From: Acidobacteriota bacterium
GTDB taxonomy: Bacteria; Acidobacteriota; Terriglobia; Terriglobales; Acidobacteriaceae
DNA: 64,000 nucleotides
Direction: 5' to 3'
Assembly: GCA_031296105.1 (NCBI GenBank)
Contig: JARLGJ010000022.1
Coordinates: forward strand, 1 to 64,000
The translations under genes were made by a program, and so were the position numbers. Positions 7,321 through 57,310 of the stretch are shown piece after piece. The notes beneath the pieces are model-generated. The model ran no database searches. It was not told where the DNA came from and saw nothing but the letters and a program-made list of their open reading frames with translations. Each line of letters starts with the position of its first letter. Position 1 is the first letter of the stretch.

Positions 7321-7399
7321 GCGATTTCGCCGTCATGGATGGAGCGTTTGCGCTAGATTTCCGGCGGGGGACCAATGCGGGCCGCTGTACTAAAATCAG

Positions 7400-7415: not shown

Positions 7416-7422
7416 TGGGTTC

Positions 7423-7451
7423 TTGACTCATACAACATAACGAGCTATTGT
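7423..7451 (+). promoter_or_regulatory. Probable sigma-70-type promoter of nrdJ
   Basis: TTGACT (7423-7428) and TATTGT (7446-7451) are spaced 17 bp apart, with the NrdR-like box 8 bp upstream. Transcription would start near 7458 and give a leader of about 350 nt before the nrdJ start codon. Confidence 0.55.
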
Positions 7452-7807: not shown

Positions 7808-10741
<2,934 letters not shown>

Positions 10742-10778
10742 ACAAAAAAGTGTTGTAGATGGATCGAGGCGATCCAAC

Positions 10779-10811
10779 AAAAAGGCCGGAGCTTCATGTT
10801 CCGGCCTTTTT
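10779..10811. terminator. Bidirectional terminator between nrdJ and the quinone oxidoreductase
   Basis: AAAAAGGCCGGA and TCCGGCCTTTTT form a strong stem-loop with A/T tails on both sides, suited to terminate both nrdJ (plus) and the converging oxidoreductase gene (minus). Confidence 0.9.
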
Positions 10812-10830
10812 GCTGCGCAAAAGCAAATTG

Positions 10831-11793: not shown

Positions 11794-11870
11794 CGTGCCT
11801 CCAGAAAAAAACTACGCCATAGTTGGATGCGCTGGTGTGCCGCGGGACGCAAAGGCCATGGTAAAAGCGT

Positions 11871-11950
11871 CCCAGGTTAGCTCGCTGCGCTCGCGAACCT
11901 GGGGCACAACACGCGAACCTGGGGCACAACACTCGCGAACCTGGGGCACA
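11871..11950. repeat. Short tandem direct repeat with an inverted flank
   Basis: The unit CGCGAACCTGGGGCACAACA is repeated about three times (11892-11950) with period 20-21 bp. Immediately upstream, CCCAGGTT (11871-11878) forms an inverted repeat with AACCTGGG of the first unit around GCTCGCTGCGCTCGC. There are no spacers, so it is not a CRISPR. It fills the gap between two minus-strand genes. Confidence 0.7.
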
Positions 11951-11964
11951 GCGCAGGTTGCAAA

Positions 11965-13152: not shown

Positions 13153-13185
13153 GCGGTCCTCCAAAGTGAACCGGTAGAAACTGCG

Positions 13186-13926: not shown

Positions 13927-14864
13927 GGGCGGCCTCCGGGGACGTGAATCGAAAATGTGATGGCCTGGTGAGGGCAGGCGGACTGGCAGTTCCAGCAATA
14001 CATGCACTCGGTCGGCTTCCAGGCGGAGGAGTCGGGATTGGCCCCGCCCTGGCAGTTCTCCACGCAGATGCGGCAACCGTTGCAGGCGGCTTCATCGCGC
14101 TGGATCTGTACCAGGGGATTGTTGCCCACCACGCCGAGCAGCGCGCCCAAAGGACAAACGTAGCGGCACCAGAAGCGCGTGCGATGCAGGTTCAGCAGCA
14201 GCGCGCCGAAGAAGAGAATGGCCAGCAGAAAGCTGCCGGTAAAGTGCGGCTGCAAGTCGGCCAACACGGTGCGGCGCAGCACGTCATAGACGGGCTCGGT
14301 GGCCGAGGTGAGATGGAAGCCGTGGATCGCGGGATCGGTCTGATAGACCCAGCCAAAGCTGGACTTGGTGGCATCGTCCAGCATGGGATAGGCCACCATG
14401 GCCGTGCCGCGGAAGAGGAAGGAAAAGGGATCGATCCATCCGGCGAGGTTGAGACCCAGCAGCGAGCACACCACCAGTGCCAGCAGTACGTAGTATTTGA
14501 TGCGCTGGCGCGGCGAAAACGTGGACGAGGCTACGCGCAGTTTGGCTCCGCCGCGGCGCACGGCGGTCACGAGATTGTGCAGGGCGCCGAAGGGGCAGAT
14601 CCAGCCGCAGAACCAGCGGCCCGCGAGAAACGTGACGGCCAGGGTGATGAGAGCCAGCAGCATTCCGGAGGCGATCTGGTGCGAGGCAATAAAACTGGTA
14701 ACGAGCACCAGGGGATCGAACTGGAAGAAGAGGTCCACGCCGCGTCCCGCGCGGTTTACCGGATGATAGGCCGTTTGCAGGAATAGATAGACAAATGCGA
14801 ATACAAAGGCGGTCTGGCACACGCGGCGGAGCCAGACCGGCCAGGATGTTTTGTTCCGCGCCAT
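13923..14864 (-). CDS. NapH/CcoG-like membrane polyferredoxin
   Basis: 313 residues with about five membrane segments. Two membrane-adjacent cysteine motifs CGWICPFGALHN and CRYVCPLGALLG are the NapH/NosR/RdxA signature; two 4Fe-4S motifs follow at the C-terminus (CNGCRICVENCQGG, CMYCWNCQSACPHQA). Members oxidise quinol and transfer electrons across the membrane. It lies 3 bp after the DUF362 gene and overlaps the NapG-like gene, so the three are co-transcribed. Confidence 0.88.
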   Translation of the reverse strand: MARNKTSWPVWLRRVCQTAFVFAFVYLFLQTAYHPVNRAGRGVDLFFQFDPLVLVTSFIASHQIASGMLLALITLAVTFLAGRWFCGWICPFGALHNLVTAVRRGGAKLRVASSTFSPRQRIKYYVLLALVVCSLLGLNLAGWIDPFSFLFRGTAMVAYPMLDDATKSSFGWVYQTDPAIHGFHLTSATEPVYDVLRRTVLADLQPHFTGSFLLAILFFGALLLNLHRTRFWCRYVCPLGALLGVVGNNPLVQIQRDEAACNGCRICVENCQGGANPDSSAWKPTECMYCWNCQSACPHQAITFSIHVPGGRP

Positions 14865-41759: not shown

Positions 41760-42383
41760 ATGAGTGAAGGAATAGAACAGGTGCAGAGCGCACCGGAGCC
41801 GCATCAGGTTATCCAGCAGCGGATCGCCAGCGAGCCGGGCGACCGGGCGAGTCTGCTGAAGATCCTCGCACTATGCCAGGTCCCGCGGCCAACGGCAGAG
41901 GTCTACACCACGGTTCAGGGCTATGCGGAAATGGCAGTCAGCATACACACTCCGCAGATTTTGGTTTGCTGGCTGTTGGAGTGTGGGGCTCTCAGACCGA
42001 TCGGGGAGCCCGGCGAAAACGAAATGCTGGAGACAACCGAGGCGGGACGCTGCGAGGTGGAGAGCCAGAACTGCGGTCAGCTCTTGCGCCAACTGCTTGA
42101 GCGTGAGCCGGAGTACCGCCGGGAGTTCCTCGAGGTGTTGGAACTTTGTGTGAGTCCGCGAACGAGAAGCGAAGTCGAAGATGCGCTCGAAAGCCATGCT
42201 CCTGCCGATCGGCCTCCGGTTCTTGTCAGCTTTTACCTCGACGCGCTGGAACACGCCGGCGGCATCGAATGGAACCACAAATGGCAGACCACGGAAGTTG
42301 CGAAGCATCTCCTGCGCGAGATGCAGACGGACAGCAACCCATTCATTGATGGAGGGAATTGTGATCAATCAACCAGGGCTTAA
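41760..42383 (+). CDS. Protein of two tandem winged-helix-like repeats, unknown function
   Basis: 207 residues, no signal or membrane helix. Residues 25-100 and 116-186 repeat one pattern: E-P-x-x-R-x-x-(L/F)-L-x-(I/V)-L-x-L-C-x-x-P-R-x-x-(A/S)-E-V, a helix pair, and a wing with TTE. First copy: LLKILALCQVPRPTAEV; second: FLEVLELCVSPRTRSEV. The helix-helix-wing order suggests a winged helix. It could be a regulator or a maturation factor of the enzyme whose gene it overlaps by 23 bp. GGAG precedes the ATG. I do not recognise the family. Confidence 0.75.
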   Translation: MSEGIEQVQSAPEPHQVIQQRIASEPGDRASLLKILALCQVPRPTAEVYTTVQGYAEMAVSIHTPQILVCWLLECGALRPIGEPGENEMLETTEAGRCEVESQNCGQLLRQLLEREPEYRREFLEVLELCVSPRTRSEVEDALESHAPADRPPVLVSFYLDALEHAGGIEWNHKWQTTEVAKHLLREMQTDSNPFIDGGNCDQSTRA

Positions 42384-45036
42384 TCGAAGAGAGTTCCTGA
42401 AGGCAACAGCCATTACCGGAGTCGCCGCGGGACTCTGCTCGGGCACGGGATTTGCGGTTGGAAAGACCTATCTTCCCCATGTCTCGGGAGGCACCAGAAT
42501 TGTGCGTACCTGCTGCCGCGCTTGCATTTCCAATTGCGGCGTGCTGGCGCACGTAAAGAACGGCCGCGTCATCAAGCTGGAGGGTGACCCGGAGCATCCA
42601 ATGTCGCGCGGCGCAATGTGTGCCAAGGGACTCGCCGGAATTCAGGCGCTCTATCACCCGAATCGCAACAAGTATCCCATGAAGCGCGTGGGTGCCCGTG
42701 GCGAAAACAAATGGCGCCGCATCTCCTGGGATGAGGCGCTGGATACCATCGCCAGAAAGTTGATGGAGACGCGCGAAAAGTATGGCGCCGAAACCGTATT
42801 TGGTTCGACGGGCGGCGGCGGCAATCCGGAATTCTGGAGCGTGGCCCGCTTCTGCAACGCGTTCGACACTCCCAACTGGTTTGAACCTGGCTGCGCCCAG
42901 TGCTACCTGCCGCGCACGCTGGCCTTTGGCATGATGTACGGCGGCCCGGATACCAGCATCGCCGACTCGAACTGCCTGGAACTGTATTCTCCGCATACTA
43001 CGCCAATTAAGTGCCTGGTCCTGTGGGGAACGGATCCCTCGTACAGCTCGCCGGCCAGCGGTGGACGGGCTCTGGTTGAATTGCGCGCGCGCGGTATGCA
43101 CTCGGTTGTCGTCGATCCACGCCTGACGCCGGATGCGGCCAAGGCAGACGTCTGGCTGCCAATTCGCCCCGGTACCGATCCGGCCCTGATGTTGTGCTGG
43201 ATTCGCTACATCATCGAAAAGCATCTCTACGATCACGACTTCGTGATGAAGTGGACGAATCTTCCGTTCCTGGTGAATACCAAAACGAAGATGTTGCTGC
43301 GCGAGAGCGAGCTGCGCCCGGGCGGAAGCGAAGAGACCTTTGTCGTCTGGGACAAGGCAACCAACTCGGCCAAGCCTCTGCCATATCCCTGGGACGATGC
43401 GCTGCAGCCTGCGCTCGCCGGCAGTTATACGATCAAAGGAGTTGAATACAAGACGGGCTTCGAGCTGCTGAAGGAGCGCTCCGAACCCTACACCCTTGCC
43501 AAGGCGGCAGAGATCTGCTGGCTTGATCCTAAGCAGATCGAGAAGGCGATCAACCTCTACGCCAGAAACACTCCCTCTGGAATGAGCCTGGGCGTGGCGA
43601 CCGATCAGAATCCGAACTCTGTTCAGTCGGCCATGGGGTGCGCCACGCTGGAAATGATCATGGGCAATGTGGAGCGCCCCGGCGCATTGATGCAGCGCTT
43701 CCGCTCCAGCGGCGCCACGCCGATCTTTACTTACATCGTCAGCCCGGCGCTCAAGCTGCTTTCTGAAAAGCAGTTCAAAAAGCGCCTGGGCGTAGTGGAA
43801 TACAAGGGATTGTTGCAATGGCTGGCCGCGCACGCGCCGTCGGTGCAGCAGGCGATTCTTACCGGCAAGCCGTACAAGCCAAGGGTGTGGCTGGACCGCT
43901 CGGGCAACAAATTTGCCGTGCTCGGCAACGCCTCGTCTTGGCTGCCGGCCGTGGAACAGATGGATCTGATCGTCCACACCTACATGTATCCAACGTCGTT
44001 CTCGGCCTATGCGGATATTTTGCTTCCGGCCACCGAATGGCTGGAAACGAACATGATCGTCGAGGCGATCAACCGGGTCTTTGCCCGGCAGGCGGTCACC
44101 CATCTGTGGGAGACCATGGATGAGACGCTGTTCTGGTCAAAGCTGGTTCACCGGCTTGCCGCGCTGGGACACGAGAATTGCAAGCGCGCGATCGATCCTG
44201 TCTTCATGGGCAATGAGCTACCTTACTGGAACTCGATGGAGGAGCTGCTCGACACCCGTTGCAAGGCTCTGAACATGACTTGGGCGGAGTTGAAGAAAAA
44301 GACGCCGGTCGAGTACTGCTCGTTCAAGGAATGGAACCAGCACTACGTGTACAAGCAGATCGATCCGAAAACCGGCAAGCCCGCCGGTTTCGGCACAGGC
44401 TCCAAGAAGCTGGAGGTTTACGCCGAGAGCATGATCATTCTGGGGCGCACGGGCAAGCCCTTTGCACCGTTCCCGCTGCCGCCCGCTTCCAGGGACTACG
44501 ACCCTCTGCCGCATTATCTCGAACCGGCGGAGAGCCCAATCGCCGGCGAAGTTGGCAAGAAGTTCCCGCTGGTGATGACCAACGGGCGGTTGCCGATCTT
44601 CCATCACGGCACACTGCGCAACAGTCCGTGGATCCGCGAGATATATCCGGCGCCGGAGCTATGGATTCATCCCAAGACGGCGGCGGCTCACGGCGTCGCG
44701 CAGGGCAACTGGGCCTGGATCGAATCGCTGCGCGGCAAGATCCGTGCCCGCGTTCGCGTAACCAAGGGCATTGCCATTGGGGTTGTTTACATGGAGCGCT
44801 TCTGGAATCCGGAGCTGCTCAATGGTCAAACTCACGGCTGGCGCGAGATGAACGTCAACATGCTCTCCAAGAACACGGCTCCATTCAATGACGTTGTCGG
44901 CACCTACACGCTGCGCGGTTACCAGGTGCGCATCTCCAAGGCCGACGGTCCTCCGCAGGGGGTGTGGCTGAAACCGGCGGACTTCAAGGCGTGGCTCCCT
45001 GAGCCCTCTGATCCCACCAAACTGGTGGAGGTGTAG
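42361..45036 (+). CDS. Tat-exported molybdopterin oxidoreductase, catechol-dehydroxylase-like clade of the DMSO reductase family
   Basis: 891 residues. GTG 42361 with GGAGG upstream gives a twin-arginine signal LNRREFLKATAITGVAAG. A 4Fe-4S site follows: Cys52-x2-Cys55-x3-Cys59-x27-Cys87. The segment FEPGCAQCYLPRTLAF (Cys178/Cys181) is where the protein ligand of Mo/W normally sits. Then LVLWGTDPSYSSPASGGRAL and the C-terminal molybdopterin-dinucleotide domain from about residue 755. MSRGAMCAKGLAGIQALYHP and the PGCAQCYLPR block resemble, as I recall, gut actinobacterial catechol dehydroxylases. Partners: the ferredoxin at 45038, the anchor at 39387 and the chaperone at 45707. Substrate inferred, not shown. 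Confidence 0.88.
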   Translation: MINQPGLNRREFLKATAITGVAAGLCSGTGFAVGKTYLPHVSGGTRIVRTCCRACISNCGVLAHVKNGRVIKLEGDPEHPMSRGAMCAKGLAGIQALYHPNRNKYPMKRVGARGENKWRRISWDEALDTIARKLMETREKYGAETVFGSTGGGGNPEFWSVARFCNAFDTPNWFEPGCAQCYLPRTLAFGMMYGGPDTSIADSNCLELYSPHTTPIKCLVLWGTDPSYSSPASGGRALVELRARGMHSVVVDPRLTPDAAKADVWLPIRPGTDPALMLCWIRYIIEKHLYDHDFVMKWTNLPFLVNTKTKMLLRESELRPGGSEETFVVWDKATNSAKPLPYPWDDALQPALAGSYTIKGVEYKTGFELLKERSEPYTLAKAAEICWLDPKQIEKAINLYARNTPSGMSLGVATDQNPNSVQSAMGCATLEMIMGNVERPGALMQRFRSSGATPIFTYIVSPALKLLSEKQFKKRLGVVEYKGLLQWLAAHAPSVQQAILTGKPYKPRVWLDRSGNKFAVLGNASSWLPAVEQMDLIVHTYMYPTSFSAYADILLPATEWLETNMIVEAINRVFARQAVTHLWETMDETLFWSKLVHRLAALGHENCKRAIDPVFMGNELPYWNSMEELLDTRCKALNMTWAELKKKTPVEYCSFKEWNQHYVYKQIDPKTGKPAGFGTGSKKLEVYAESMIILGRTGKPFAPFPLPPASRDYDPLPHYLEPAESPIAGEVGKKFPLVMTNGRLPIFHHGTLRNSPWIREIYPAPELWIHPKTAAAHGVAQGNWAWIESLRGKIRARVRVTKGIAIGVVYMERFWNPELLNGQTHGWREMNVNMLSKNTAPFNDVVGTYTLRGYQVRISKADGPPQGVWLKPADFKAWLPEPSDPTKLVEV

Positions 45037-45037
45037 C

Positions 45038-45619
45038 GTGAGCAAACAGAACACTCTCATTATTGATTTGGATCGCTGTATTGGTTGCCATGGCTGCCAC
45101 GTGGCCTGCAAGCAGGAGAACAACGTGGCTCTGGGACTTTACTGGAACCAGGTTGTGACCATCGGCCCGAAGGGTGACTACCCGAACACGCAAATGTACT
45201 TTCTGCCGCTGATGTGCCAGGAGTGCAAGGAGCCAAGCTGCGTGAAGGTTTGTCCCACGCAGGCTTCCTATCGTGCCGAGGATGGCGTCGTGCTCATCGA
45301 TCACAGCAAGTGCATCGGCTGCAAGCTGTGCATGAAGGCATGCCCGTATGGAGCACGCTCGTTCAACCCGGCCACCAACGTAGTGGAGAAGTGCACCACC
45401 TGCGCCCATCTGCGCCAGATTGACGAGAAACCTGCCTGCGTCAAGAACTGCGTTGGCAAGGCGCGCCTCTTCGGCGACATCAACGATCCGAATAGCGAAG
45501 TGTCGCAGGCACTGAAGAGGGCCGGCGCCGCGAACGTTCATGCTTTGCCGGATAAGGGCACGCACCCGTCAACGCGCTATATTCTGCACGCGAAGATGGG
45601 AACGTGGATGACGAAGTAA
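45038..45619 (+). CDS. DmsB-like four-cluster ferredoxin subunit
   Basis: 193 residues with sixteen cysteines arranged as four 4Fe-4S sites: CIGCHGCHVACKQEN, CQECKEPSCVKVCP, CIGCKLCMKACPYGAR, and CTTCAHL with CVKNC. This is the electron-transfer B subunit of DMSO-reductase-type complexes. It has no signal of its own and would be co-exported with the Tat-tagged catalytic subunit. The GTG start is 2 bp after the catalytic gene's stop with GGAGG upstream. It carries electrons between the DmsC-like anchor and the molybdoenzyme. Confidence 0.95.
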   Translation: MSKQNTLIIDLDRCIGCHGCHVACKQENNVALGLYWNQVVTIGPKGDYPNTQMYFLPLMCQECKEPSCVKVCPTQASYRAEDGVVLIDHSKCIGCKLCMKACPYGARSFNPATNVVEKCTTCAHLRQIDEKPACVKNCVGKARLFGDINDPNSEVSQALKRAGAANVHALPDKGTHPSTRYILHAKMGTWMTK

Positions 45620-45665
45620 CCGGCCCGCGCCTGGCATTCGCAAGGCGCGGCCATGACTCAGCCTG

Positions 45666-45691
45666 GCGGGCGGAGGACGCCCTCCGCCCGC
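45666..45691 (+). terminator. Perfect 11-bp intercistronic hairpin
   Basis: GCGGGCGGAGG and CCTCCGCCCGC pair around an ACGC tetraloop between the ferredoxin and chaperone genes. There is no T run, so it more likely tunes the chaperone:enzyme ratio (partial termination or mRNA processing) than ends the operon. Confidence 0.6.
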
Positions 45692-45706
45692 GATGTTCAG
45701 AGGTGA

Positions 45707-46393
45707 ATGATGGAAGTAATTACGCAATGCGAAGCAGTTCTGGCAAACCAGCAATTCCTTTATTCTCTGCTGGCCGGACTCTACCGAAACGAAGTAAGTC
45801 AGTCCTCCTGGGACGAGTTGTCGAAGCTCGCGTTTCCCCGGGAATGCCCGGTTCCAGTTCTGAGCGAGGGCTATCGCCAGTTGGAGGCGTACTTCAAGCG
45901 CCCCGGGCGCGATCCCATAACCGACCTGGCCGTGGACTACGCGCGCGTGTTTCTCGGTGCCGGCATTGCCGAAGGGACCGCGGCTTATCCCTATGCCTCG
46001 GTGTACACCAGCGCGGAGCGCCTGATGATGCAGGAGGCGCGTGATCGCGCGCTGGCCATGTACACGGAGCGGCAACTGGCGCGCTCGGCGGAGTTCGACG
46101 TGCCGGAGGACCATCTCAGTCTTGAACTGGAATTTGCGTGCCGCCTGGCGGAGGATGCCAAGCTGGCTCTTTCCCGCGGAGACCTTGCCGCCGCCGTCAC
46201 GGCCCTGCAGGCGCAGGAGAACTTTCTCACGCAAGAGGTTCTGCCGTGGCTGCCCCGCTTCTGCGAGGATGTCGAACGCTATTCGCAGACCCAGTTCTAC
46301 AAGGCAGTTGCTAAGATTACGGGTGCCTGCGTTGCGCTGCACGCTGGCGTACTGCAGGACATGATTGCGGATCTGGGAACGGTGGCCGCATAA
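45707..46393 (+). CDS. TorD/DmsD-family molybdoenzyme maturation chaperone
   Basis: 228 residues, all-helical, cytosolic. The family pattern is seen in YRNEVSQSSWDELSKL at the N-terminus, YARVFLGAG, and the diagnostic VPEDHLSLELEFACRLAED. Such chaperones bind the Tat signal of their partner and hold it back until the molybdopterin cofactor is inserted. The gene follows the ferredoxin gene after an 87-bp gap with a strong hairpin, so it is the last gene of the right arm. ATG 45710 is an alternative start. Confidence 0.9.
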   Translation: MMEVITQCEAVLANQQFLYSLLAGLYRNEVSQSSWDELSKLAFPRECPVPVLSEGYRQLEAYFKRPGRDPITDLAVDYARVFLGAGIAEGTAAYPYASVYTSAERLMMQEARDRALAMYTERQLARSAEFDVPEDHLSLELEFACRLAEDAKLALSRGDLAAAVTALQAQENFLTQEVLPWLPRFCEDVERYSQTQFYKAVAKITGACVALHAGVLQDMIADLGTVAA

Positions 46394-46484: not shown

Positions 46485-48503
46485 CTACTGAATCCCGTTG
46501 AGCAGTTGCTTCGGGTCAATCCCGTAGCGGCGCATTCTCCACAGCAAAGTAGTGCGCTTGATGCCAAGGCGCTGGGCGGCTCCCCTGGGGCCGCCGACGA
46601 TCCCATTCGTCTCAATCAAGACCCGCTGGATCATCTCAGCGGAAATCTCATCGGGGTTCACCGGAATTGGCGGTGCCGCCGGCCTGCTCAGCGCCGCGGC
46701 CTCGGCCGGAAACATTGCGTCCTGCCAGTAGTCATTTTGCAGCGTGAGGACTGGCCCGCGGCTCAGGATCACCGAGCGTTCAATCAGGTTCTCCAACTCG
46801 CGGATGTTTCCCAGCCAGGGAGCATTGGCCAGCCGCTGCATTACATCTTCGGGAACCGTGTCGATCTGCCGGTGCATCAGGGTGGAATACTTGCGCACAA
46901 AATGCCAAACCAGGCGGGGTATATCCTCGCATCTCTCCCGCAGCGAGGGGATTCTGACCGGGAAGACGTTCAAACGATAAAACAGGTCGCTACGGAACTC
47001 GCCCTGCTTCACCTTCTCCGCCAGGTCGCAGTTGGTGGCGGCGATCACCCTTACGTCCGCCCTCTGGGTTTGCGTACTGCCCAGCCGGCAGAATTCCTTT
47101 TCCTGCAGGAAGCGCAGAAGTTTGGGTTGCAATTCGAGCGGCAAGTCACCCACTTCATCCAGGAAAATCGTTCCATGGCTCGCGGCTTCCACTAAGCCAA
47201 GCTTGCTGCTGACCGCGCCGGTGAATGCTCCCTTTTGGTAGCCGAAGAGCTCGCTTTCCAGTATTCCGCTGGGCAACGCCGCGCAGTTCACTTTGATCAG
47301 AGGATGGTCACGGCGCGGGCTGAGGGCATGAACAGCGCGGGCGACGAGTTCCTTGCCCGTTCCCGTCTCTCCCAGAATCAATACCAGCGCCGGGGTATCC
47401 GCCACCAGACGCACCTGCTCCAGCACCGACCGCAACGCCTTGCTCTCACCGATGATCCCAGCCTCCTCCGCATAGTAGAGGGAGGGAGCCGGGGGCGGAG
47501 CCGCGACGCGAATTTCACCCGCCCGCTGCTTCTGTTGCATATCCAGAAGTTTTACGGTGGAGGCGATGAGTTTGCCGACGGCGTTGAGGAACTCAATACT
47601 GTCACGGCTGAAGGCGCCGCATTGTGCATTGCCTATGTTCAACGTGCCGATCGACGCTCCCTGGACGATGAGAGGAACGGAGCAGAACTCCCGCAGTCCT
47701 TCCTGCCAGAAGCGCGAGACGACGTCGAAATGGCCGACCATCTCTTGCATTTGCCATTGGTTGGTCAGCAGGCACTCACGCCGTTGGAAGGCAACCACGC
47801 CGGTGGTCTCATCGAGCCTGTGGGTTTTCCCTGTCAATTCCGCGGAAGTACGGTCCCGGGTGATAAAGTGCACGGCCGAGCGGCGCATCATCTCATGCAT
47901 GGGATCGTAAACCAGGAGATCGAGGTACTGGGCGCCACAGGTCTGCGCGATCAGCCGCGACAATCCAGCCAGCAGATAGTCCGGGGAATCATGAGAAGCC
48001 ACCGCGTCGGCGATCTCCTGCATTGTTGCCAGGGACTTGCACGCGGCCGCCGCTTCAATTCTGCTCTCCCGCGTCTTGGCCGCAGCCGCCAGCCGCTCCA
48101 GCAGTGCGAGGAAGTGTGTGCCCACATCGCCCAGTACTGCCGTGGGCGGAAGTTCGTCTGCCCCTGGTCCGGCGCATGAGTCTCCCATTGTCAAGGTGCC
48201 TACCTGGTGACCATCAATGAGCAGGCTGACCGACCGGCAGTTCTGGATGCGGTATTGATCGAGTAGAGTTTTCAGGCCATCGGGGCCGGTTTCCAGACAG
48301 CAGGGTTTGAGCAGCAGCGAGCGGTAGGTGGAGAACGCCGGGTCGTACAACTGCAAGTGCAGAAATTCTCCCCGCACATGCGGATCGATATAGTGCAGAA
48401 ATTCGTCAGCCACTTGGCTTAACGAGACGCCAGAGAGCGCCGTGGACATGAGGCTGGCTATCTCCGGTTGGATGATCGCGGAAGTATTATTTATGTCAAA
48501 CAT
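46485..48503 (-). CDS. Sigma-54-dependent transcriptional activator, two GAF domains, FhlA-like
   Basis: 672 residues. Two GAF-like sensor domains (about 20-140 and 160-320), an AAA+ domain with Walker A GETGTGKE (378-385), the sigma-54-contacting loop GAFTGA (425-430) and Walker B FLDE (447-450), and a C-terminal Fis-type helix-turn-helix (AAQRLGIKRTTLLWRMRRYG). It lacks a receiver domain, so GAF ligands rather than phosphorylation probably control it. It converges on the right arm and is the likely activator of both sigma-54 promoters at 40.2-40.6 kb. The inducer is unknown. Confidence 0.93.
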   Translation of the reverse strand: MFDINNTSAIIQPEIASLMSTALSGVSLSQVADEFLHYIDPHVRGEFLHLQLYDPAFSTYRSLLLKPCCLETGPDGLKTLLDQYRIQNCRSVSLLIDGHQVGTLTMGDSCAGPGADELPPTAVLGDVGTHFLALLERLAAAAKTRESRIEAAAACKSLATMQEIADAVASHDSPDYLLAGLSRLIAQTCGAQYLDLLVYDPMHEMMRRSAVHFITRDRTSAELTGKTHRLDETTGVVAFQRRECLLTNQWQMQEMVGHFDVVSRFWQEGLREFCSVPLIVQGASIGTLNIGNAQCGAFSRDSIEFLNAVGKLIASTVKLLDMQQKQRAGEIRVAAPPPAPSLYYAEEAGIIGESKALRSVLEQVRLVADTPALVLILGETGTGKELVARAVHALSPRRDHPLIKVNCAALPSGILESELFGYQKGAFTGAVSSKLGLVEAASHGTIFLDEVGDLPLELQPKLLRFLQEKEFCRLGSTQTQRADVRVIAATNCDLAEKVKQGEFRSDLFYRLNVFPVRIPSLRERCEDIPRLVWHFVRKYSTLMHRQIDTVPEDVMQRLANAPWLGNIRELENLIERSVILSRGPVLTLQNDYWQDAMFPAEAAALSRPAAPPIPVNPDEISAEMIQRVLIETNGIVGGPRGAAQRLGIKRTTLLWRMRRYGIDPKQLLNGIQ

Positions 48504-49412: not shown

Positions 49413-51743
49413 GTGAAGTGTTTTTGGAGAAACGTATTCAGGATGAAGGTGGCGTTGCTTGCGGCAGCGCTCTTAACGCCCGTCTTCGCGCTGGCACAGC
49501 ATGGTCAATTGACCGGTGAGGTACGCGACCCGCATCAAGCCGTGGTGGCGGGGATAACCGTAAAGGTGAAGAATACGGCCACCGGAAAAGTGAAGACGTC
49601 GCACGGTAACGCCGCGGGAAAGTTCGTGTTCAACGATCTCGCCGCCGGGGATTACAGTCTTGCGGTGGATGCCGCGGGCTTCAAGCCGGTTCGTATCGAC
49701 CGGGTGACGGTCGCCGAGACCGGCGAGACCACCCAGAACATCGTGCTTGAGCTGGCCGGCACAAAATCGTCGGTTACGGTTAGGGCGCTCTCCCTGAATC
49801 CAGACGTCAAGTCCCAGGAACAGACCTCGCTGCTGGAAATTCCCGCAGGCATTGCGAACGACAATATTGTCTTCACGGCCAAAGATATTGAGGCGCTGCA
49901 TCCGTCCTCGCTGCTGGATGTCCTTCAGACCGTGCCCGGCGTGGAAATCACCGCGCAGGGGCGTCAGCACATGGACTTCATGACCATGCGCGGCGGCAGC
50001 TTCCAGGTGATCATCGATGGCGTCTATCTCTCGCAGGCCGATCGCATTCTCGGTACGGTTCCGGTGGAACTGGTCGAATCGATGACGATTGTGCGCGACT
50101 CGACGGCGCTGACCATCGGTCCCTTGGTCGCCTATCACTCCATCAGCAGCAGCGGCACCGGCGTCTCCAACCAGGGATTTGTCATCATCCGCACCAAGCG
50201 CTCGGCCGCCACCGAGGCTGGCTTTGCTTCCAGCGGCGGCAGTTACGGCACGGCCATGGGGCACGCCTACGTGGGCAGCAAGAGCGGCAAATGGGACTAT
50301 CGCGGGGCCTATACCTACAGCACCACCGCCGGCCGCGACCGCTGGAATATGGCCGCGCGCAACGGATCGGCGATGTTCCACGGCGGCTACGCCAGCGGCA
50401 ACCTGACCATGGATTTTGTTTACTACGGTCTGCGCGGCATGCGTCAGTTCGAATATGGCGAAGTGCTGCTGGCTTCCACCGGCACCTCCTGCACCCCGAA
50501 GGCCGCCGTGGGCGGGCTGTGCGCGACCACCATGAACATGTACAAGGGCGACGGTGATCTTTTTGCCCTGAATGTCGCCAAGCGCTGGAACGATAGCAAT
50601 CGCACCACCCTGCAATATGGCTTTGACCGTTCGATCATCAACGCGGGTATGCTTCCGGTAGCAACCGGATCGAGTAACGAGCAGGACTCCACCGAGGGTT
50701 CCGTGGTCCTCAAACACACTTATATGTTCAAGAAAAATGAACTGACTGGCGGCGGACAGTTCATGAAGTACATTGCGCCTCTGGGCTCGGCGCCCACCAA
50801 CGGCAAGGTCGCCAACCGGCTCGACGATGCAATGTATAGCTGGTTTGTGCAGGACGAGTACCGTTTCCTCGGCGGCAAACTTGTCCTTGACGGCAGCATT
50901 CGCGGGGACAAGCTGCATAGCAGCAATTACAATTCGACCATCAAGGCCAGCAGCGACGTGTGGGGTTCCACCTTCAAGACGATTGCCTTTGGAGCCACCT
51001 ACAAGTTCAATCCCAGGGTGACCACCTCGGCGCGCTACGGGTTGGTGACCACGCCGGCGGCCAGCAACGACGTTTATCAGACCAGTTCCATGACGGCGCC
51101 TTCTACCAATCTGCCAAACCAGACCCAGAACCGCGGCGAGTTGACGACCGAAGTCAAGGTGAACCCGCACTTTGTTCCCAACGTTGCTCTCTACCTTTAC
51201 AGCACGCAGAACGCCACCGCATCGGCTTCCACCTGCACCAACCCCAGCGGCGTCAAGAACCAGTCCTCGTGGCTGAATTCCAACGGCAACGAAATTGATT
51301 GCGTGAGCCTGGCGGGAACGGTGACGACGGCGGGCACGGAAACAGGATTTTCCGGGCGCCTGGTGGGCCCATTCAAATACAAGGCCGGGTATGGCTACAT
51401 CGGCACCGACAATAGGGCGACGAACAAGACGATGTCGCATAACTTCGTCGATGCCAGCCTTGGCTTTGCGGATCGCGGCTACTTCGCGAACTTCAACATG
51501 GTTTACGTCGGACCCAAGTGGTCGGCTTCTTCGCCGAGCACAACGTACTATGGCCTGCTGGCGAACTACACCCGTCTGGATCTGAACGGCGGCTACAACT
51601 TCCATGTCGCCGAGCGGCCCATGACGTTTACCGTCTTTGGCCGCAACCTGAATAACAACCTCTATGCCACGCGTTACGTTACGGGCGCTTATCGCGATCC
51701 GGGCCGTGTGTGGGGCGTGGAGCTGGCGGCCAAAGTATTTTAA
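49413..51743 (+). CDS. TonB-dependent receptor of the metallophore-type cluster
   Basis: 776 residues, outer membrane. GTG 49413 follows AAGGAGAG; a signal peptide (MKVALLAAALLTPVFALAQH) precedes a carboxypeptidase-regulatory-like domain (HGQLTGEVRDPHQAVVAGIT, to about 110), a plug (LLDVLQTVPGVEITAQGRQH, RGGSFQVIIDGVYLSQADR) and a barrel ending NLYATRYVTGAYRDPGRVWG. It is smaller than the receptor at 28474. It starts an operon with FecBCD-like genes, so it should import a metal chelate or cofactor-like compound rather than a polymer. Confidence 0.92.
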   Translation: MKCFWRNVFRMKVALLAAALLTPVFALAQHGQLTGEVRDPHQAVVAGITVKVKNTATGKVKTSHGNAAGKFVFNDLAAGDYSLAVDAAGFKPVRIDRVTVAETGETTQNIVLELAGTKSSVTVRALSLNPDVKSQEQTSLLEIPAGIANDNIVFTAKDIEALHPSSLLDVLQTVPGVEITAQGRQHMDFMTMRGGSFQVIIDGVYLSQADRILGTVPVELVESMTIVRDSTALTIGPLVAYHSISSSGTGVSNQGFVIIRTKRSAATEAGFASSGGSYGTAMGHAYVGSKSGKWDYRGAYTYSTTAGRDRWNMAARNGSAMFHGGYASGNLTMDFVYYGLRGMRQFEYGEVLLASTGTSCTPKAAVGGLCATTMNMYKGDGDLFALNVAKRWNDSNRTTLQYGFDRSIINAGMLPVATGSSNEQDSTEGSVVLKHTYMFKKNELTGGGQFMKYIAPLGSAPTNGKVANRLDDAMYSWFVQDEYRFLGGKLVLDGSIRGDKLHSSNYNSTIKASSDVWGSTFKTIAFGATYKFNPRVTTSARYGLVTTPAASNDVYQTSSMTAPSTNLPNQTQNRGELTTEVKVNPHFVPNVALYLYSTQNATASASTCTNPSGVKNQSSWLNSNGNEIDCVSLAGTVTTAGTETGFSGRLVGPFKYKAGYGYIGTDNRATNKTMSHNFVDASLGFADRGYFANFNMVYVGPKWSASSPSTTYYGLLANYTRLDLNGGYNFHVAERPMTFTVFGRNLNNNLYATRYVTGAYRDPGRVWGVELAAKVF

Positions 51744-51760
51744 GATTGGTCGAGTCACAG

Positions 51761-52387
51761 ATGAACGCAGAAAGCTACAGTGCGATTGCCGGCGAACTCT
51801 TTGCCCCGCTCTACCCGTATTATGCCGGGCAGATCGTGGCCCGGACCGGCATTCGCGCTGGCGCCTGCCTGGACGCGGGCTGCGGCTGCGGCGACCTTGG
51901 CCTGGCCGTGGCTGCCGCGGGCGAGTTCGAGCTTTTCTTCCTCGATCGCTCCGCGGCCATGCTGAGCAAGGCCCGCGAGAGGGTGTGCCAGAGTGGCCGC
52001 CGCTCGGGCGTTACCTTTCTTGAAGCCATGGTCGAGAGCATTCCCATGCCCGAGGCCAGCTTCGATCTCGTCGTCAGCCGCGGCTCGGTGCCTTTCTGGG
52101 AGAACCTTGCGGATGCGTTTGGCGAGATTTTCCGCGTGCTTAAACCCGGCGGCCATGCCTACATTGGCGGCGGACTCGGCACCCGGGAGATGCGCGAAAA
52201 GATTCAGCAGGCAATGCGCGAGCGCGCCGCCGGGCGCGGAACGGAAGAGATGGGAAAGATTCCGCAACGCACCATGGGAGAGTACGAGGACGCGTTGCGC
52301 CGCGCGGGGATTTTGCATGGAAACGTGGAGCGGAGCGACGAGGGAACCTGGATTCGCTTCACCAAACCACCCGCCGGAGTGGAGTAG
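51761..52387 (+). CDS. Class I SAM-dependent methyltransferase of the metallophore-type cluster
   Basis: 208 residues, cytosolic. Motif I is Cys-rich and slightly unusual (ACLDAGCGCGDLGLAVAAAG), followed by LFFLDRSAAMLSKARERV, SIPMPEASFDLVVSRGSV and FRVLKPGGHAYIGGGLG. It resembles UbiE/methyltransf_11 enzymes. It lies 17 bp after the receptor and 27 bp before the binding-protein gene, so it is part of the operon. It may modify the imported or a self-made chelator. The role is inferred from position only. Confidence 0.85.
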   Translation: MNAESYSAIAGELFAPLYPYYAGQIVARTGIRAGACLDAGCGCGDLGLAVAAAGEFELFFLDRSAAMLSKARERVCQSGRRSGVTFLEAMVESIPMPEASFDLVVSRGSVPFWENLADAFGEIFRVLKPGGHAYIGGGLGTREMREKIQQAMRERAAGRGTEEMGKIPQRTMGEYEDALRRAGILHGNVERSDEGTWIRFTKPPAGVE

Positions 52388-52414
52388 CGCTCCCGCGGCC
52401 GAGAGGACTAAATC

Positions 52415-53431
52415 ATGAAGAAGATTGCTGCCGTTCTTATGCTGCTGGCGGCGCTGCTTGCACAGGCGAGCGCCCGCGAGATTACGGACATGGCGGGCCG
52501 CAAGGTCACCATCCCCAACGATCTTAAAAAAGTTTACGCACCCTCTCCCTACGGGGCGTACATGATGTACGCAATTGCTCCCGACCTGATGAGCGGCCTG
52601 GTGTTTCTTCCCAAGGAGAGCGACAAAAAGTTCCTGCCCAAGGCGTTGCTGAATTTGCCGGTCATCGGTGGCGGCCCGGGACTGACCGCCAACCCGGAGA
52701 TGTATGTGAAGACCGGCACGCAGTTGCTTGTCATTTGGCGCGCCGAGCCCCGGCCCATTGACGAACGCACCACGGCAACGCTGGATAAACTCAACATTCC
52801 TTATGTCATCGTCGATGCCACCACACTCGCCGACTACCCCAAGGCCATCCGCTTTCTGGGCGCGCTGACGCATCGCGAAGCGCACGCCGAGAAGATGGCC
52901 CAGGCGGCGGAGAAAATTCTCGCCGACACCCAGGCCGCGGTTGCCAAGGTTCCGCCCAACCAGAGGCCCAGAGTCTATTACGCCGAGGGCGTGGATGGAC
53001 TGAGCACCGAGTGCAACGATTCCATCCACGTGCAACTGCTCACCCTGGCTGGCGATCTTGATGTTCACCGCTGCCACACGGCCAGCCACATGGGCATGGA
53101 GAAGATCTCGCTGGAACAGGTGATGCTGTACCAGCCCGATGTGATTCTGGCGCAGGAAAGCATGTTCACCGCCAAGGTGTACAGTGACCCGGCCTGGGCG
53201 CAGGTCAAGGCGGTCCGGGAGCACCATGTGTACCTGATTCCGCGCCTGCCGCTCAACTGGTTTGACCGTCCGCCCTCGTTCATGCGCTTCGCCGGTCTGG
53301 AGTGGCTCACCAACAAACTCTACCCAAGGCAATATCCCATCGACATCCACAAAGAGACGCAGAAGTTCTATTCAACATTCCTGGGAGTCAAGTTGAGCGA
53401 CCAGGACGTTGCGGAGATTCTTGGCCAATGA
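52415..53431 (+). CDS. Periplasmic substrate-binding protein of an iron-complex/cobalamin-type ABC transporter
   Basis: 338 residues. Signal peptide MKKIAAVLMLLAALLAQASA, then the helical-backbone binding fold (PF01497 type): REITDMAGRKVTIPNDLKKV at the start, GTQLLVIWRAEP, SLEQVMLYQPDVILAQESMF and AVREHHVYLIP. It captures the chelate passed by the TonB receptor. Its stop overlaps the permease ATG (ATGA). Substrate class only (siderophore, corrinoid or other metal chelate) can be stated. Confidence 0.9.
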   Translation: MKKIAAVLMLLAALLAQASAREITDMAGRKVTIPNDLKKVYAPSPYGAYMMYAIAPDLMSGLVFLPKESDKKFLPKALLNLPVIGGGPGLTANPEMYVKTGTQLLVIWRAEPRPIDERTTATLDKLNIPYVIVDATTLADYPKAIRFLGALTHREAHAEKMAQAAEKILADTQAAVAKVPPNQRPRVYYAEGVDGLSTECNDSIHVQLLTLAGDLDVHRCHTASHMGMEKISLEQVMLYQPDVILAQESMFTAKVYSDPAWAQVKAVREHHVYLIPRLPLNWFDRPPSFMRFAGLEWLTNKLYPRQYPIDIHKETQKFYSTFLGVKLSDQDVAEILGQ

Positions 53432-54537
53432 GCGTTCCTGAAGTTGCCTTACCGGACCGCCCGCACCAGGCCGCCGAGGCGAGTTCCCCGGCGGCGGCCG
53501 TGGGCAGCCGTCTGCTGCACATAGCGCGCGGCGCGGCCCCACTGCTGGGCAGCGCGCTGCTGCTGGCGGCAACCATGCTCGTCTCGCTGTCGCTGGGGAA
53601 ATACAAAGTATCGCTGCGGGAGATCGCGCTCTACTTCTGGCAACGCTGGGTGGGCGGCAACGCCATCGCCGCCGATCGCATGGCGCTGCTCAATGGCGTA
53701 CTCATGGAAATCCGTTTGCCGCGCATTCTGGCGGCGGCCTTGGTTGGTTCGGCGCTATCGGCTTCGGGTGCATCCTTTCAGGCCATGTTCGTTAATCCGC
53801 TGGTTTCGCCCAGTTTGCTGGGAGTGCTGGCCGGGGCATCGTTTGGCGCGGCGCTGGGCATCGTGTATCTGAAGACCTGGTTTGCCGTAGAAGTTGCTAC
53901 CTTTATTGGTGGACTGGCGGCGGTCATGCTTGCCGTCGGCATTGCCAGCATTTACCGCAACAACTCAACCATTATGCTGGTGCTGGGCGGCATCATCAGC
54001 GGTGCGCTGTTTACCTCCCTGCTCTCGCTCGTTAAATATCTCTCCGACCCCTTCAACCAGTTGCCCACCATCGTGAGCTGGCTGATGGGAAGCCTGACGC
54101 TCACGGACCGCTCGATGCTGGGCAAGGTAAGCATTCCGATCCTCGGCGGCCTGTTGCTGCTGCTGTTGCTCTCGCGCCATTTGAATGTGTTGAGCATGGG
54201 CGACGAGGAAGCGCACGCGCTGGGCGTCAACGTGCGCGCGGTGCGTCTGCTGGTCATCTTCGCGGCCACGGTTGTCAGCGCTCTCACCGTGGTCATCGCC
54301 GGAACCATCGGCTGGGTAGGACTGATCGTTCCTCACTTTACCCGCATGATTACCGGGCCGGATAACACGCGGCTGATTCCGGCAAGCATGCTGATCGGCG
54401 CGGCTTACCTGATTGTGGTCGATTCCATCGCGCGGCTGGCGTTCACCTTCGAACTGCCCATCGGCATCGTTACCGCCTTGGTCGGCATTCCGTGCTTTGC
54501 CGTGGTGCTGCGCAACGCGCGCAAGGGGTGGAACTGA
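53428..54537 (+). CDS. FecCD/BtuC-type ABC permease
   Basis: 369 residues, about ten membrane segments. FecCD signature regions: EIRLPRILAAALVGSALSAS, QAMFVNPLVSPSLLGVLAGA, the coupling loop DEEAHALGVNVRAVRLLV, and VVIAGTIGWVGLIVPHFTRM. A Pro/Ala-rich 30-residue N-terminal extension is unusual. It works as a homodimer with the ATPase that overlaps by one base. ATG 53428 is chosen by the ATGA overlap. Confidence 0.93.
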   Translation: MSVPEVALPDRPHQAAEASSPAAAVGSRLLHIARGAAPLLGSALLLAATMLVSLSLGKYKVSLREIALYFWQRWVGGNAIAADRMALLNGVLMEIRLPRILAAALVGSALSASGASFQAMFVNPLVSPSLLGVLAGASFGAALGIVYLKTWFAVEVATFIGGLAAVMLAVGIASIYRNNSTIMLVLGGIISGALFTSLLSLVKYLSDPFNQLPTIVSWLMGSLTLTDRSMLGKVSIPILGGLLLLLLLSRHLNVLSMGDEEAHALGVNVRAVRLLVIFAATVVSALTVVIAGTIGWVGLIVPHFTRMITGPDNTRLIPASMLIGAAYLIVVDSIARLAFTFELPIGIVTALVGIPCFAVVLRNARKGWN

Positions 54538-55325
54538 TGGCGCTGCTCGAAATCGAGTCGCTTGAGTTCGGCTACACACGGCAGCCAGTCATCGAGAATC
54601 TGAGCCTTTCCTTCGCGGCCGGCTCGGCCACCGCGATTCTGGGGCCCAATGGCAGCGGCAAGAGTACGCTGCTCAAGCTCCTGCTCGGCCTGCTGCGTCC
54701 GCGCAAGGGAACGATCTGGCTGGACGGGATGGCGCTGCCTTCAATTCCACTTCGCCAACTGGCACGGAAGGTTGCCTACGTGCCGCAGGTGCATCGCGAG
54801 GCTTTTGGTTATTCGGTCTTCGACGTGGCGCTGATGGGACGAATGCCGCATAGCTCGCTCTTTTCCCGCTACAGCGAGAAGGACCGTGACGCCGTGCGCG
54901 AGGCCCTCGAGCGGATGGAGATCTCTCACCTTGCCGCGCGCCCCTACACGCAGATCAGCGGCGGAGAGCGGCAGTTGACGCTGATTGCGCGCGCCCTGGC
55001 GCAGGGGGCCGGAGTGTTTGTAATGGACGAGCCCACCAACAGCCTGGACTACGGCAACCAGGTTCGCTTGCTGGAGCGCATCGGCAACCTCTCCGCCGAT
55101 GGCTTCACCTTCATCTTCACCACGCATCATCCCGACCATGCGATGGCCATTGCCGACCGAGTTGTTATGATGCAGAAAGGCCGCATTGTGCGCGACGGAG
55201 CGCCGGAGGCCGTGATTGGGCCGGAGACGCTTGCCTCTCTGTATGGGCTGCCGCCGGGCCTGTTCGCGCAGGATGCGGGCAGGCATGGATCGGTTCCCAG
55301 GCTGCGGCGCGCCGCCACGCTCTAA
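54537..55325 (+). CDS. FepC/BtuD-type ABC ATPase
   Basis: 262 residues. Walker A LGPNGSGKSTLLKLLLGLLR, signature ISGGERQLTLIARALAQGA, Walker B VFVMDEPTNSLDYGNQV and the switch His in FTTHHPDHAM. It powers the FecCD-like permease. The start codon overlaps the permease stop. The next gene follows after 48 bp with its own strong ribosome binding site. Confidence 0.95.
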   Translation: MALLEIESLEFGYTRQPVIENLSLSFAAGSATAILGPNGSGKSTLLKLLLGLLRPRKGTIWLDGMALPSIPLRQLARKVAYVPQVHREAFGYSVFDVALMGRMPHSSLFSRYSEKDRDAVREALERMEISHLAARPYTQISGGERQLTLIARALAQGAGVFVMDEPTNSLDYGNQVRLLERIGNLSADGFTFIFTTHHPDHAMAIADRVVMMQKGRIVRDGAPEAVIGPETLASLYGLPPGLFAQDAGRHGSVPRLRRAATL

Positions 55326-55373
55326 ATACCTCGCACATTCGGACGGCGCAGGAAACTGCGCCGTGGAGGATCT

Positions 55374-55880
55374 ATGGAAAGACCGGCTCGGGAACACGAA
55401 AAAGTTTTCGGACAGCAGTGGATGACCCATGAAATCACCGTCAGTGGCGAGGTGAATCACCCGCTCACGCTCACCGCGGACGATCTTCGCGGCATGGAGA
55501 TGACCGAGGTGAATAACGTCGGACTCATCTGCGGCAGCGGGCGCCACGATGGCATTGTGAAAAGTTACCGCGGCGTGCGTCTTACGGCGGTGCTGGAGCG
55601 GGCCGAGGTGAAGATGAAGTTTCATGACTCGCCCAACTACCTTTATGTCACGGTGGTTTCCAGCGACCACCACTGGGCCATCTTTTCCTACCAGGAACTG
55701 TTCAACAGCGCGGTTGGCGAGCAGGCGGTTGTGATCGTCGAGCGCGACGGCCAGCCGCTGGACGAGAAGGAAGGCGAGATCGCGTTTATCTCCGCCAACG
55801 ACGTGCGTCCCGGGCCGCGCCGCTTGCGCTACCTGTCGCACATCCAGGTGCACGAACACCAGTTGGAGAACGGAGAATGA
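55374..55880 (+). CDS. Small molybdopterin-binding-fold (sulfite-oxidase-like) protein
   Basis: 168 residues, no signal peptide. It matches the oxidoreductase molybdopterin-binding fold: ITVSGEVNHPLTLTADDLRG, VGLICGSGRHDGIVKSYRGV with a Cys at the Mo-ligand place, LYVTVVSSDHHWAIFSYQEL and RLRYLSHIQVHEHQ. It is half the size of a complete sulfite oxidase domain and lacks the dimerisation domain. ATG 55374 has GGAGG 4 bp upstream. In this cluster it may handle or sense molybdopterin or metal rather than be a full enzyme. Not MsrP: too short, no Tat signal. Confidence 0.75.
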   Translation: MERPAREHEKVFGQQWMTHEITVSGEVNHPLTLTADDLRGMEMTEVNNVGLICGSGRHDGIVKSYRGVRLTAVLERAEVKMKFHDSPNYLYVTVVSSDHHWAIFSYQELFNSAVGEQAVVIVERDGQPLDEKEGEIAFISANDVRPGPRRLRYLSHIQVHEHQLENGE

Positions 55881-56722
55881 CTGCGCCCGCGCCGGCCGGC
55901 ATCCTCGACGAAGCCGCGGAACAGCTCTCGAAGCTCCACGGCGATGCCATTGAAAAGCTCGCCGTCGAGCAGGCCGTTGTCGGCGTCTTCTTCACCGGGG
56001 TTCGTTTCTCGGATGGCAGCACAGGAGTCGCCTACACGCCGCCGGAAATGATTCAGCGCGCCAGCACGCGCATCCTCGGCGACCGCCCGCGCTCTTACCG
56101 GGGCAGGACGGCCGCCCAGATGATCTCCTCTTCGCTCGACGGCCATTTTGCGCCTGTCGTGCGGCTGGCGGCGCTCAACGCGCTCTCGGCGGAGTATCTG
56201 GCGCGCGCCGCTGGCGAGCACGCCCCCGCCAACGATCTAAGCAACATGCCGAAGCTCTTTACCGGACGCCGCGTCTGCATGGTGGGAGCCATTGTTCCCT
56301 TGCTCAAAAAAATCTCGCAGCTCGGCGCGGCGCAGATCGCCATTATCGACCGCAAAAAGGAGACCGAAGCGGAAGCCGGGTTAGGCAGCTTCGTCCCGTT
56401 GGAACAGACTGCCCAGGTGCTGTCGGAATGCCAGACCGCGGTGCTCACCGGCGCAACCATTGCCAACGGAAGCATTGAGGAGCTGCTCGGCTATATTCCC
56501 GCCGATGCCGCCATTGCCGTGGTGGGGCCGACGGCAGGCTTTGTCCCCGAGCCGCTCTTCCGGCGCGGCGTGGCCGTCGTGGGCACGGTCACCATTACGG
56601 ATGGCATCCGCGCCATGGAGATCATCTCCGAAGGCGGCGGGGCGCTGGAGCTTTTCCGCCACAGCGCGCGTAAAGTGAATCTTGTGAATCAACCAAGGCT
56701 GGCGGCGCTGGGTTTATGCTGA
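55877..56722 (+). CDS. DUF4213/DUF364 protein, putative heavy-metal chelation type
   Basis: 281 residues. The N-terminal DUF4213-like part (AVVGVFFTGVRFSDGSTGVA, to about 80) is joined to the DUF364 Rossmann-like part (KLFTGRRVCMVGAIVPLLKK, AVLTGATIANGSIEELLGYI, VVGPTAGFVPEPLFRRGVAV). Families of this type are annotated as putative heavy-metal chelators and are often next to FecBCD transporters and FmdE. The start overlaps the previous stop (ATGA). The exact function is unknown. Confidence 0.87.
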   Translation: MTAPAPAGILDEAAEQLSKLHGDAIEKLAVEQAVVGVFFTGVRFSDGSTGVAYTPPEMIQRASTRILGDRPRSYRGRTAAQMISSSLDGHFAPVVRLAALNALSAEYLARAAGEHAPANDLSNMPKLFTGRRVCMVGAIVPLLKKISQLGAAQIAIIDRKKETEAEAGLGSFVPLEQTAQVLSECQTAVLTGATIANGSIEELLGYIPADAAIAVVGPTAGFVPEPLFRRGVAVVGTVTITDGIRAMEIISEGGGALELFRHSARKVNLVNQPRLAALGLC

Positions 56723-56737
56723 AAGCCGATCTTAGAG

Positions 56738-57310
56738 GTGAATGAATTGGAAACACTCGACTACACCAGTTATGACGCCATGCTGAAAGTGGCTGGCGAA
56801 TTTCATGGCCACGTTTGCGCGGGCATCTGTATTGGAACGCGCATGGCCATCGCCGGCATGAAGAAGGTTGGCATCTCCGATCCCCGGGGCGCCGACCGCA
56901 AGAAGCTCATCGTCTTTGTTGAAATTGATCGCTGCGCCACCGACGCCATCATGGCCATTACCGGATGCAGTCCGGGGCGCCGCAGCATGAAGATCTTCGA
57001 CTACGGCAAAATGGCCGCCACCTTCCATAACCTCGAAACCGGCAAGTCGGTTCGCCTGGTTGCCAGGAGAAAACAGAATGGCCAGCCTACCGAACCGGAG
57101 GAGTGGGGCCGCTTGAATGAGGAGGAGATCTTCTCGGTGCAGGACGTGCGGGTGTTCCTTGCTCCCGAAGACCTTCCCGGCAAACCTCTGCGCCGTCGCG
57201 ACTGTGCGCGCTGCGGCGGCAGCATAATGGATGGCCGCGAAGTTGAGGCGAACGGCGAATGCCTCTGCCGCCCGTGCGCCGCGGGCAAGGACTACTACCA
57301 GCCGGCGTAA
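56738..57310 (+). CDS. FmdE-family protein with C-terminal zinc finger
   Basis: 190 residues. The FmdE domain has the H-x-C pair GEFHGHVCAGICIGTRMA, EIDRCATDAIMAITGCSPGR and KIFDYGKMAATFHN; a treble-clef-like zinc finger ends it (CARCGGSIMDGREVEANGE then CRPCA). FmdE was named from formylmethanofuran dehydrogenase, a Mo/W enzyme, but most members occur in bacteria next to molybdoenzyme or metal-uptake genes, so a metal-handling role is plausible. Start GTG 56738 or TTG 56747; AGAGG lies at better distance for the latter. Last gene of the cluster. Confidence 0.88.
   Translation: MNELETLDYTSYDAMLKVAGEFHGHVCAGICIGTRMAIAGMKKVGISDPRGADRKKLIVFVEIDRCATDAIMAITGCSPGRRSMKIFDYGKMAATFHNLETGKSVRLVARRKQNGQPTEPEEWGRLNEEEIFSVQDVRVFLAPEDLPGKPLRRRDCARCGGSIMDGREVEANGECLCRPCAAGKDYYQPA

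Follow-up and report, generated by a model that had tools for sequence, protein, structure and literature searches.

A candidate TonB-dependent molybdenum/tungsten acquisition operon with a class II importer and a mini sulfite-oxidase-fold protein in an Acidobacteriota bacterium

The window considered here, a stretch of 64,000 nucleotides (nt) of contig JARLGJ010000022.1 from an Acidobacteriota bacterium, carries at 49413-57310 eight forward-strand open reading frames (ORFs), whose families and order are confirmed by Pfam: a TonB-dependent outer-membrane receptor, a methyltransferase, a Peripla_BP_2 substrate-binding protein (SBP), a FecCD/BtuC-type permease, an ABC ATPase, a mini sulfite-oxidase-fold protein (mini-SUOX), a DUF4213/DUF364 protein and an FmdE-family protein (Table 1). 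The stop-to-start distances along the cluster are 2, 27, -4, -1, 48, -4 and 15 nt, and because these junctions are small or overlapping the eight genes are likely to form a single transcription unit. A preliminary description of the window had proposed such a continuous cluster, and the Pfam assignments and gap lengths agree with it; the FecB/C/D-like transporter that it named consists of a single SBP, a single FecCD permease and a single ATPase. The operon probably serves TonB-dependent acquisition of molybdenum (Mo) or tungsten (W), to which we assign a probability of about 0.7, and the support for this reading comes from homologous loci, none of it from a regulatory or other element at the window.

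The receptor gene begins with a GTG codon downstream of a GGAG-type ribosome-binding site, its product has CarboxypepD_reg as the N-terminal domain, and it is 41% identical to the receptor of a Syntrophorhabdus operon (L053). The start of the methyltransferase gene is uncertain and is most likely internal to the called ORF, which opens at 51710, so as to lie 3' of the TonB stop; homologues (E<1e-15) are found at 15 of the 75 related loci surveyed below. The single FecCD permease, presumably a homodimer, is 51-62% identical to the permeases of Mo/W-tagged loci. A weak match to the solved DUF364 structure 3npg was obtained for the DUF364 protein. The FmdE protein contains an FHGHVC motif and a C-terminal Cys4 zinc-finger-like tail, and a DksA/TraR-type zinc finger falls below threshold (20.1 bits, cut-off 24.9); the protein matches PDB entry 2gvi at 4.6e-08 and has homologues of 50-56% identity in loci of Syntrophorhabdus, Desulfocapsa and Nitrospirales.

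Table 1. Features of the putative import operon and of its upstream neighbourhood
Feature	Position	Strand	Evidence
TonB-dependent outer-membrane receptor	49413..51743	+	CarboxypepD_reg 62.4 bits, Plug 47.1 bits (Pfam)
Class I SAM-dependent methyltransferase	51746..52387	+	Methyltransf_11 72.2 bits (Pfam)
Peripla_BP_2 SBP	52415..53431	+	46.8 bits (Pfam); N-terminal hydrophobic signal-like helix
FecCD/BtuC-type permease	53428..54537	+	FecCD 265 bits (Pfam)
ABC ATPase of class II importer	54537..55325	+	ABC_tran 112.4 bits (Pfam)
Mini-SUOX	55374..55880	+	Oxidored_molyb PF00174 38.8 bits, cut-off 24 (Pfam)
DUF4213/DUF364 protein, enolase-N + Rossmann type	55877..56722	+	DUF4213 46.9 bits, DUF364 124.9 bits, cut-off 23 for the latter (Pfam)
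FmdE-family protein	56738..57310	+	FmdE 110.6 bits, cut-off 22.9 (Pfam)
DMSO-reductase-family molybdoenzyme (catalytic subunit, Fe-S subunit, TorD/NarJ-type chaperone)	42349..46393	+	Pfam/NCBIfam; outside operon
FhlA-like GAF-GAF-sigma54 activator	46485..48503	-	Pfam; between molybdoenzyme locus and import operon

The nearest solved structure to the SBP is 4pag from Sulfurospirillum deleyianum (5.6e-67), the ligand of which is unknown. In a single-sequence search the SBP matches MolA (HI_1472) at 7.1e-12 and BtuF at 4e-5, and a profile built from 18 family members (A3) matches MolA (PDB 3psa) over the full length at 8.1e-34, as against 7.6e-19 for the heme-binding IsdE, 4.1e-15 for the B12-binding BtuF and ~5e-12 for YfmC (Fe-citrate) and FeuA. 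An AF2 model of the SBP (pLDDT 89.2) gives VIA Z scores of 37.0 to 4pag, 26.7 to MolA, 23.7 to YiuA, ~23 to CeuE and 18.3 to BtuF. By profile and by model, the molybdate/tungstate-binding MolA (HI1472) is the closest to the window family among solved SBPs of known ligand, although the homology is not exclusive to MolA and extends to Fe-siderophore SBPs.

Riboswitches at related loci also point to Mo and W. An Rfam scan covered 25 loci of the SBP family, three of which (L066, L086 and L088) have molybdenum cofactor (Moco) riboswitches aimed at the import genes. At the Geobacteraceae locus L066 there are two RF01055 elements (78.9 and 77.4 bits), the nearer being 220 nt 5' of an SBP-FecCD-ABC-FmdE operon; in Syntrophomonas, L086 has one (55.7 bits) located 161 nt 5' of FecCD-ABC-DUF364-SBP, and L088 has two (79.4 and 66.2 bits). 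Moco RNAs lacking stem P3 correlate with the tungsten cofactor and those bearing it with molybdenum (Regulski et al., PMC2408646). P3 is missing in both L066 copies and in one L088 copy, and is present in L086 and in the other L088 copy; since both forms occur, the SBP family seems to serve both metals. Tungsten is the metal indicated at L066, which among the riboswitch-tagged loci is the closest relative of the window operon (permease identity 61%). A riboswitch at L121 was left out of this count, being oriented away from the SBP gene. L066 (1137-2643) also has one Moco-II RNA, which together with the two P3-lacking Moco riboswitches lies around the SBP gene and a methyltransferase-like gene.

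The gene neighbourhood of the family was surveyed by searching genome contigs with an SBP-alignment profile, which yielded 75 loci; a small in-house dicodon caller predicted the genes, and their labels came from BLAST comparison with reference proteins. Within ~10 kb, 41 of the 75 loci have a Mo-specific marker of any kind (ModE, Mop, ModA, ModB or MoeA/Glp at 35), and 36 have DUF364, FmdE, mini-SUOX or TrmO. The Mo-marked loci span Campylobacterota, Alpha- and Betaproteobacteria, Desulfobacterota, Chlorobi, Actinobacteria and Synergistota, and in the deposited annotation of a Shinella plasmid the family SBP and permease adjoin Glp, Mop and ModA. For a matched comparison, the FecCD loci of 19 survey genomes were mapped and 52 were annotated likewise, 20 of the SBP family and 32 others. 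Mo-specific markers occur at 8/20 SBP-family and 2/32 other loci (Fisher p=0.0043), and DUF364, FmdE or TrmO at 11/20 and 3/32 (p=0.0005), p values that are indicative. Among 147 same-operon neighbours tallied by Pfam, SAM methyltransferases are the most frequent otherwise unlabelled family (31), followed by TonB_C (14), ExbB (10) and ExbD (9), so that several related operons carry their own TonB energiser. Bacterial globins recur in the same tally, and luciferase-like monooxygenases recur within Mo-linked FecCD operons at four Sulfurospirillum loci (L055, L057, L058 and L075). The full operon was not found in the same phylum near the best DUF364 matches (13 matches, 297 genomes).

The mini-SUOX protein, of 168 residues, is a stand-alone PF00174 domain in which no signal peptide was seen, and its homologues at L068 and L101 have signal-like N-termini. 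Its model (pLDDT 76.4) has VIA Z scores of ~15 to SoxC and SorA and 13.9 to PruR. Cys53 is invariant in six homologues and is aligned by hhalign, at a modest probability of 35.6%, with the E. coli MsrP/YedY Cys that ligates Mo in that enzyme. Homologues occur in 6 of 35 transporter-bearing genomes, five inside the transporter locus and the sixth between two FmdE genes. In Gaiellales (L080, 5989-6975) a longer PF00174 protein of 328 aa separates the SBP gene from DUF364-FecCD-ABC, and a Mop gene is close by, which extends this transporter association to Actinobacteria. A second, distant mini-SUOX homologue of the host (29% identical; contig 39, 1498-1923) is outside transporter loci and adjoins a phosphoglucomutase/phosphomannomutase-like gene.

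The 3.45-Mb host genome contains eight FecCD permeases and three DUF364 genes. Three Moco riboswitches, two of them adjoining MoaA paralogues, together with formate dehydrogenases and an AOR-family gene, indicate use of Mo and probably of W by the host. A canonical ModABC on contig 47 rules out the idea that the host has no other Mo importer. On contig 40 (7313-12040) a TonB-FecCD-ABC locus is flanked by two formate dehydrogenases, and because it has a cobalamin riboswitch of 107.5 bits it is a separate B12-type system on sequence criteria; the idea that every FecBCD locus of the host near Mo enzymes is a Mo system is thereby ruled out. A tRNA-Sec and a SECIS_3 element near this locus indicate that the host probably makes selenoproteins. 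Contig 8 (3435-13983) has another DUF364-FecCD-ABC-SBP operon and a TonB receptor gene that diverges from it, accompanied by a cysteine desulfurase, an XRE-PBP_like (PF12727) regulator, a methyltransferase and a TrmO_N protein whose tail weakly resembles FmdE; a similar arrangement is seen in L082, and parts of it in L120 and L125. On contig 60 (6976-13324), TonB-SBP-FecCD-ABC is followed by TrmO_N fused to a heavy-metal-associated (HMA) domain, and the locus adjoins a formate-hydrogenlyase-type complex, MoaA and a CsoR-like gene.

With regard to mechanism, the receptor would take up scarce Mo or W, probably as a small chelate but possibly as the bare oxyanion, and TonB/ExbBD energy would drive it into the periplasm. 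The SBP would then deliver it to the homodimeric FecCD permease and ABC ATPase, as in the Haemophilus MolBC-A importer. Once inside the cell, the ligand or its metal may be acted on by DUF364, FmdE and the methyltransferase, and mini-SUOX, with its Cys, may bind the resulting metal-pterin, or the metal, en route to cofactor assembly. The presence of a TonB receptor, DUF364, FmdE and mini-SUOX suggests chelate-based import and cofactor loading, the main argument for a chelate being the receptor, because free molybdate passes porins. The receptor could also scavenge a very scarce oxyanion, since MolA itself binds free molybdate and tungstate (PMC4031551). What the sequences show is the gene content, the operon structure, the homologies, the kept Mo-ligating Cys, and the regulation and neighbourhood of homologous operons, which are those of Mo/W genes. 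The metal at this locus, its arrival as chelate or oxyanion and every cytoplasmic step are what we infer from these comparisons, including any alteration of the chelator by DUF364 and the methyltransferase and any handling of metal or metal-pterin by FmdE and mini-SUOX. A wider proposal is that widespread operons annotated as 'iron ABC transporters' form a TonB-energised route for Mo/W chelates (molybdophores or tungstophores), with the chelator acted on in the cytoplasm by DUF364 and the methyltransferase, and metal or metal-pterin taken for cofactor assembly by a single-domain SUOX protein that keeps its Mo ligand; this is tentative, and we would place it somewhat below even odds.

The preliminary description had placed the operon next to a molybdoenzyme locus, and this is indeed the upstream neighbour, with the divergent activator and ~0.9 kb of DNA intervening. 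It had also favoured Mo/W as the metal, which agrees with the ModE, Mop, ModAB and MoeA neighbours and the Moco riboswitches at related loci and with the MolA match. Several observations weigh against Mo/W acquisition. An Rfam scan found no RF01055 riboswitch in the window, the sole match being one tRNA with no regulatory RNA, and no recognisable regulator site was found at the operon. No sigma-54 promoter for the FhlA-like activator was found upstream of the operon, the pattern occurring at chance level in the window, and the inverted repeats upstream are only weak, none being common with the contig 8 operon. Moreover, 17 of the 75 surveyed loci have neither a Mo nor a DUF364/FmdE-type marker, and the closest relatives (L053, L060-L062, L065) are marked by FmdE/DUF364 and not by Mod genes. 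Evidence from gene neighbourhood is correlative, and the control comparison was small and phylogenetically non-independent. The YedY alignment of mini-SUOX is of modest probability, the need for a second importer beside ModABC is unclear, and, judged from the model, a siderophore ligand is compatible with the SBP structure, the fold likeness extending to the Fe-siderophore binders YiuA and CeuE.

The operon could be read as a ferric-siderophore system importing xenosiderophores, with DUF364, FmdE and the methyltransferase releasing or modifying the ligand and the molybdoenzyme locus a chance neighbour. TonB, Peripla_BP_2 and FecCD together are the textbook siderophore architecture, relatives carry the annotation 'iron ABC transporter', the SBP model resembles Fe-binding proteins, and other TonB/FecBCD loci of the host (C16, C54) have no Mo genes in view. 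We regard this as unlikely, given the enrichment of Mo markers at the SBP family over the remaining FecCD loci in these genomes, the Moco riboswitches preceding homologous operons, the rank of MolA among SBPs of known ligand and a mini-SUOX with the Mo-ligating Cys inside the operon. No siderophore biosynthesis genes were seen among the called neighbours of the operon. Uptake of cobalamin or another corrinoid by a BtuB-BtuFCD-like system would share the TonB and FecCD components, and the top NCBIfam match of the permease is BtuC, at 189 bits far under the cut-off of 461. Nevertheless, a cobalamin riboswitch was found neither in the window nor at any of the 25 scanned family loci, compared with 4/6 FecCD loci of other families in these genomes (p=0.0005), a further one of these six having an Fe-responsive PrrF RNA; with BtuF far below MolA in the profile ranking and a riboswitch-tagged B12-type locus already on contig 40, cobalamin is a very improbable substrate.

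Transport of a pterin or molybdopterin-like compound is decidedly unlikely. In its favour, FecBCD-type importers carry large cofactors. According to this explanation DUF364, for which a flavin/pterin-derivative active site was proposed in its structure paper (PMC2954201), would act on the ligand, and mini-SUOX would bind it in the manner of PruR, whose structures it matches. PruR (7kos, 7kom, 7rkb) is likewise a stand-alone SUOX-fold protein, of ~150 residues; it has a signal peptide and a Trp in place of the Mo-ligating Cys of Moco enzymes (PMC13259868), whereas no signal peptide is seen in mini-SUOX and the Cys is kept throughout its family. No DcpA/DTB-type partner is present among the adjoining called genes, mini-SUOX being flanked by the ABC ATPase and DUF364, and the neighbours at related loci are molybdate genes (ModE, Mop, ModAB) and not pterin genes.

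If Mo/W acquisition is correct, a phylogenetically broad set of transporters labelled as iron or siderophore systems would become Mo/W importers with dedicated outer-membrane receptors. This would bear on how anaerobes rich in formate dehydrogenases, formate hydrogenlyases and tungsten enzymes are supplied with Mo and W, which are scarce in sulfidic or acidic settings. DUF364 and FmdE, old families of unknown function, would gain a testable setting, and the one-domain Cys-bearing SUOX protein would represent a simple possible carrier of metal-pterin.

Parts of this system are already known. MolBC-A (HI1470-1472) of Haemophilus influenzae is a class II molybdate/tungstate importer (PMC4031551; PDB 3psa/3psh), and the window operon resembles it in having a Peripla_BP_2 SBP, related over the full-length profile and by fold, a FecCD/BtuC-type permease, an ABC ATPase and an association with Mo/W, with one permease gene and one ATPase gene beside the MolA-homologous SBP. 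The two SBPs are only 21% identical, and MolA, where it aligns with a W-x-DRPPS-type motif found throughout the window family, does not conserve that motif. ModABC, TupABC and WtpABC transport the same metals with other SBP and permease families and with no outer-membrane receptor; the window importer, assigned by Pfam to Peripla_BP_2 and FecCD, belongs to neither the ModA/TupA/WtpA nor the ModB type. The distinction from these systems drawn by the preliminary description thus holds at the level of protein family, but a FecBCD-type route was already known from MolBC-A (PMC4031551) and the host has ModABC in addition. DUF364 (PF04016) and FmdE (PF02663) had also been linked to metals in structure papers of 2010, which place both beside metal-ion/ABC transporters and DUF364 beside Mo, W, V and Fe genes (PMC2954201, PMC2954224). 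A search of the open literature, with subscription papers outside its range, found no description of TonB-linked Mo/W operons with this gene set. In the available portions of the MolBC-A account no TonB receptor, DUF364, FmdE, mini-SUOX or methyltransferase is described, all of which are present in the window operon, and those of the two structure papers mention neither the riboswitch link found here nor an occurrence of these families together with mini-SUOX, a TonB receptor and a class II importer. What appears to be new is therefore a TonB-linked, MolBC-A-like putative Mo/W uptake operon with cytoplasmic accessory proteins.

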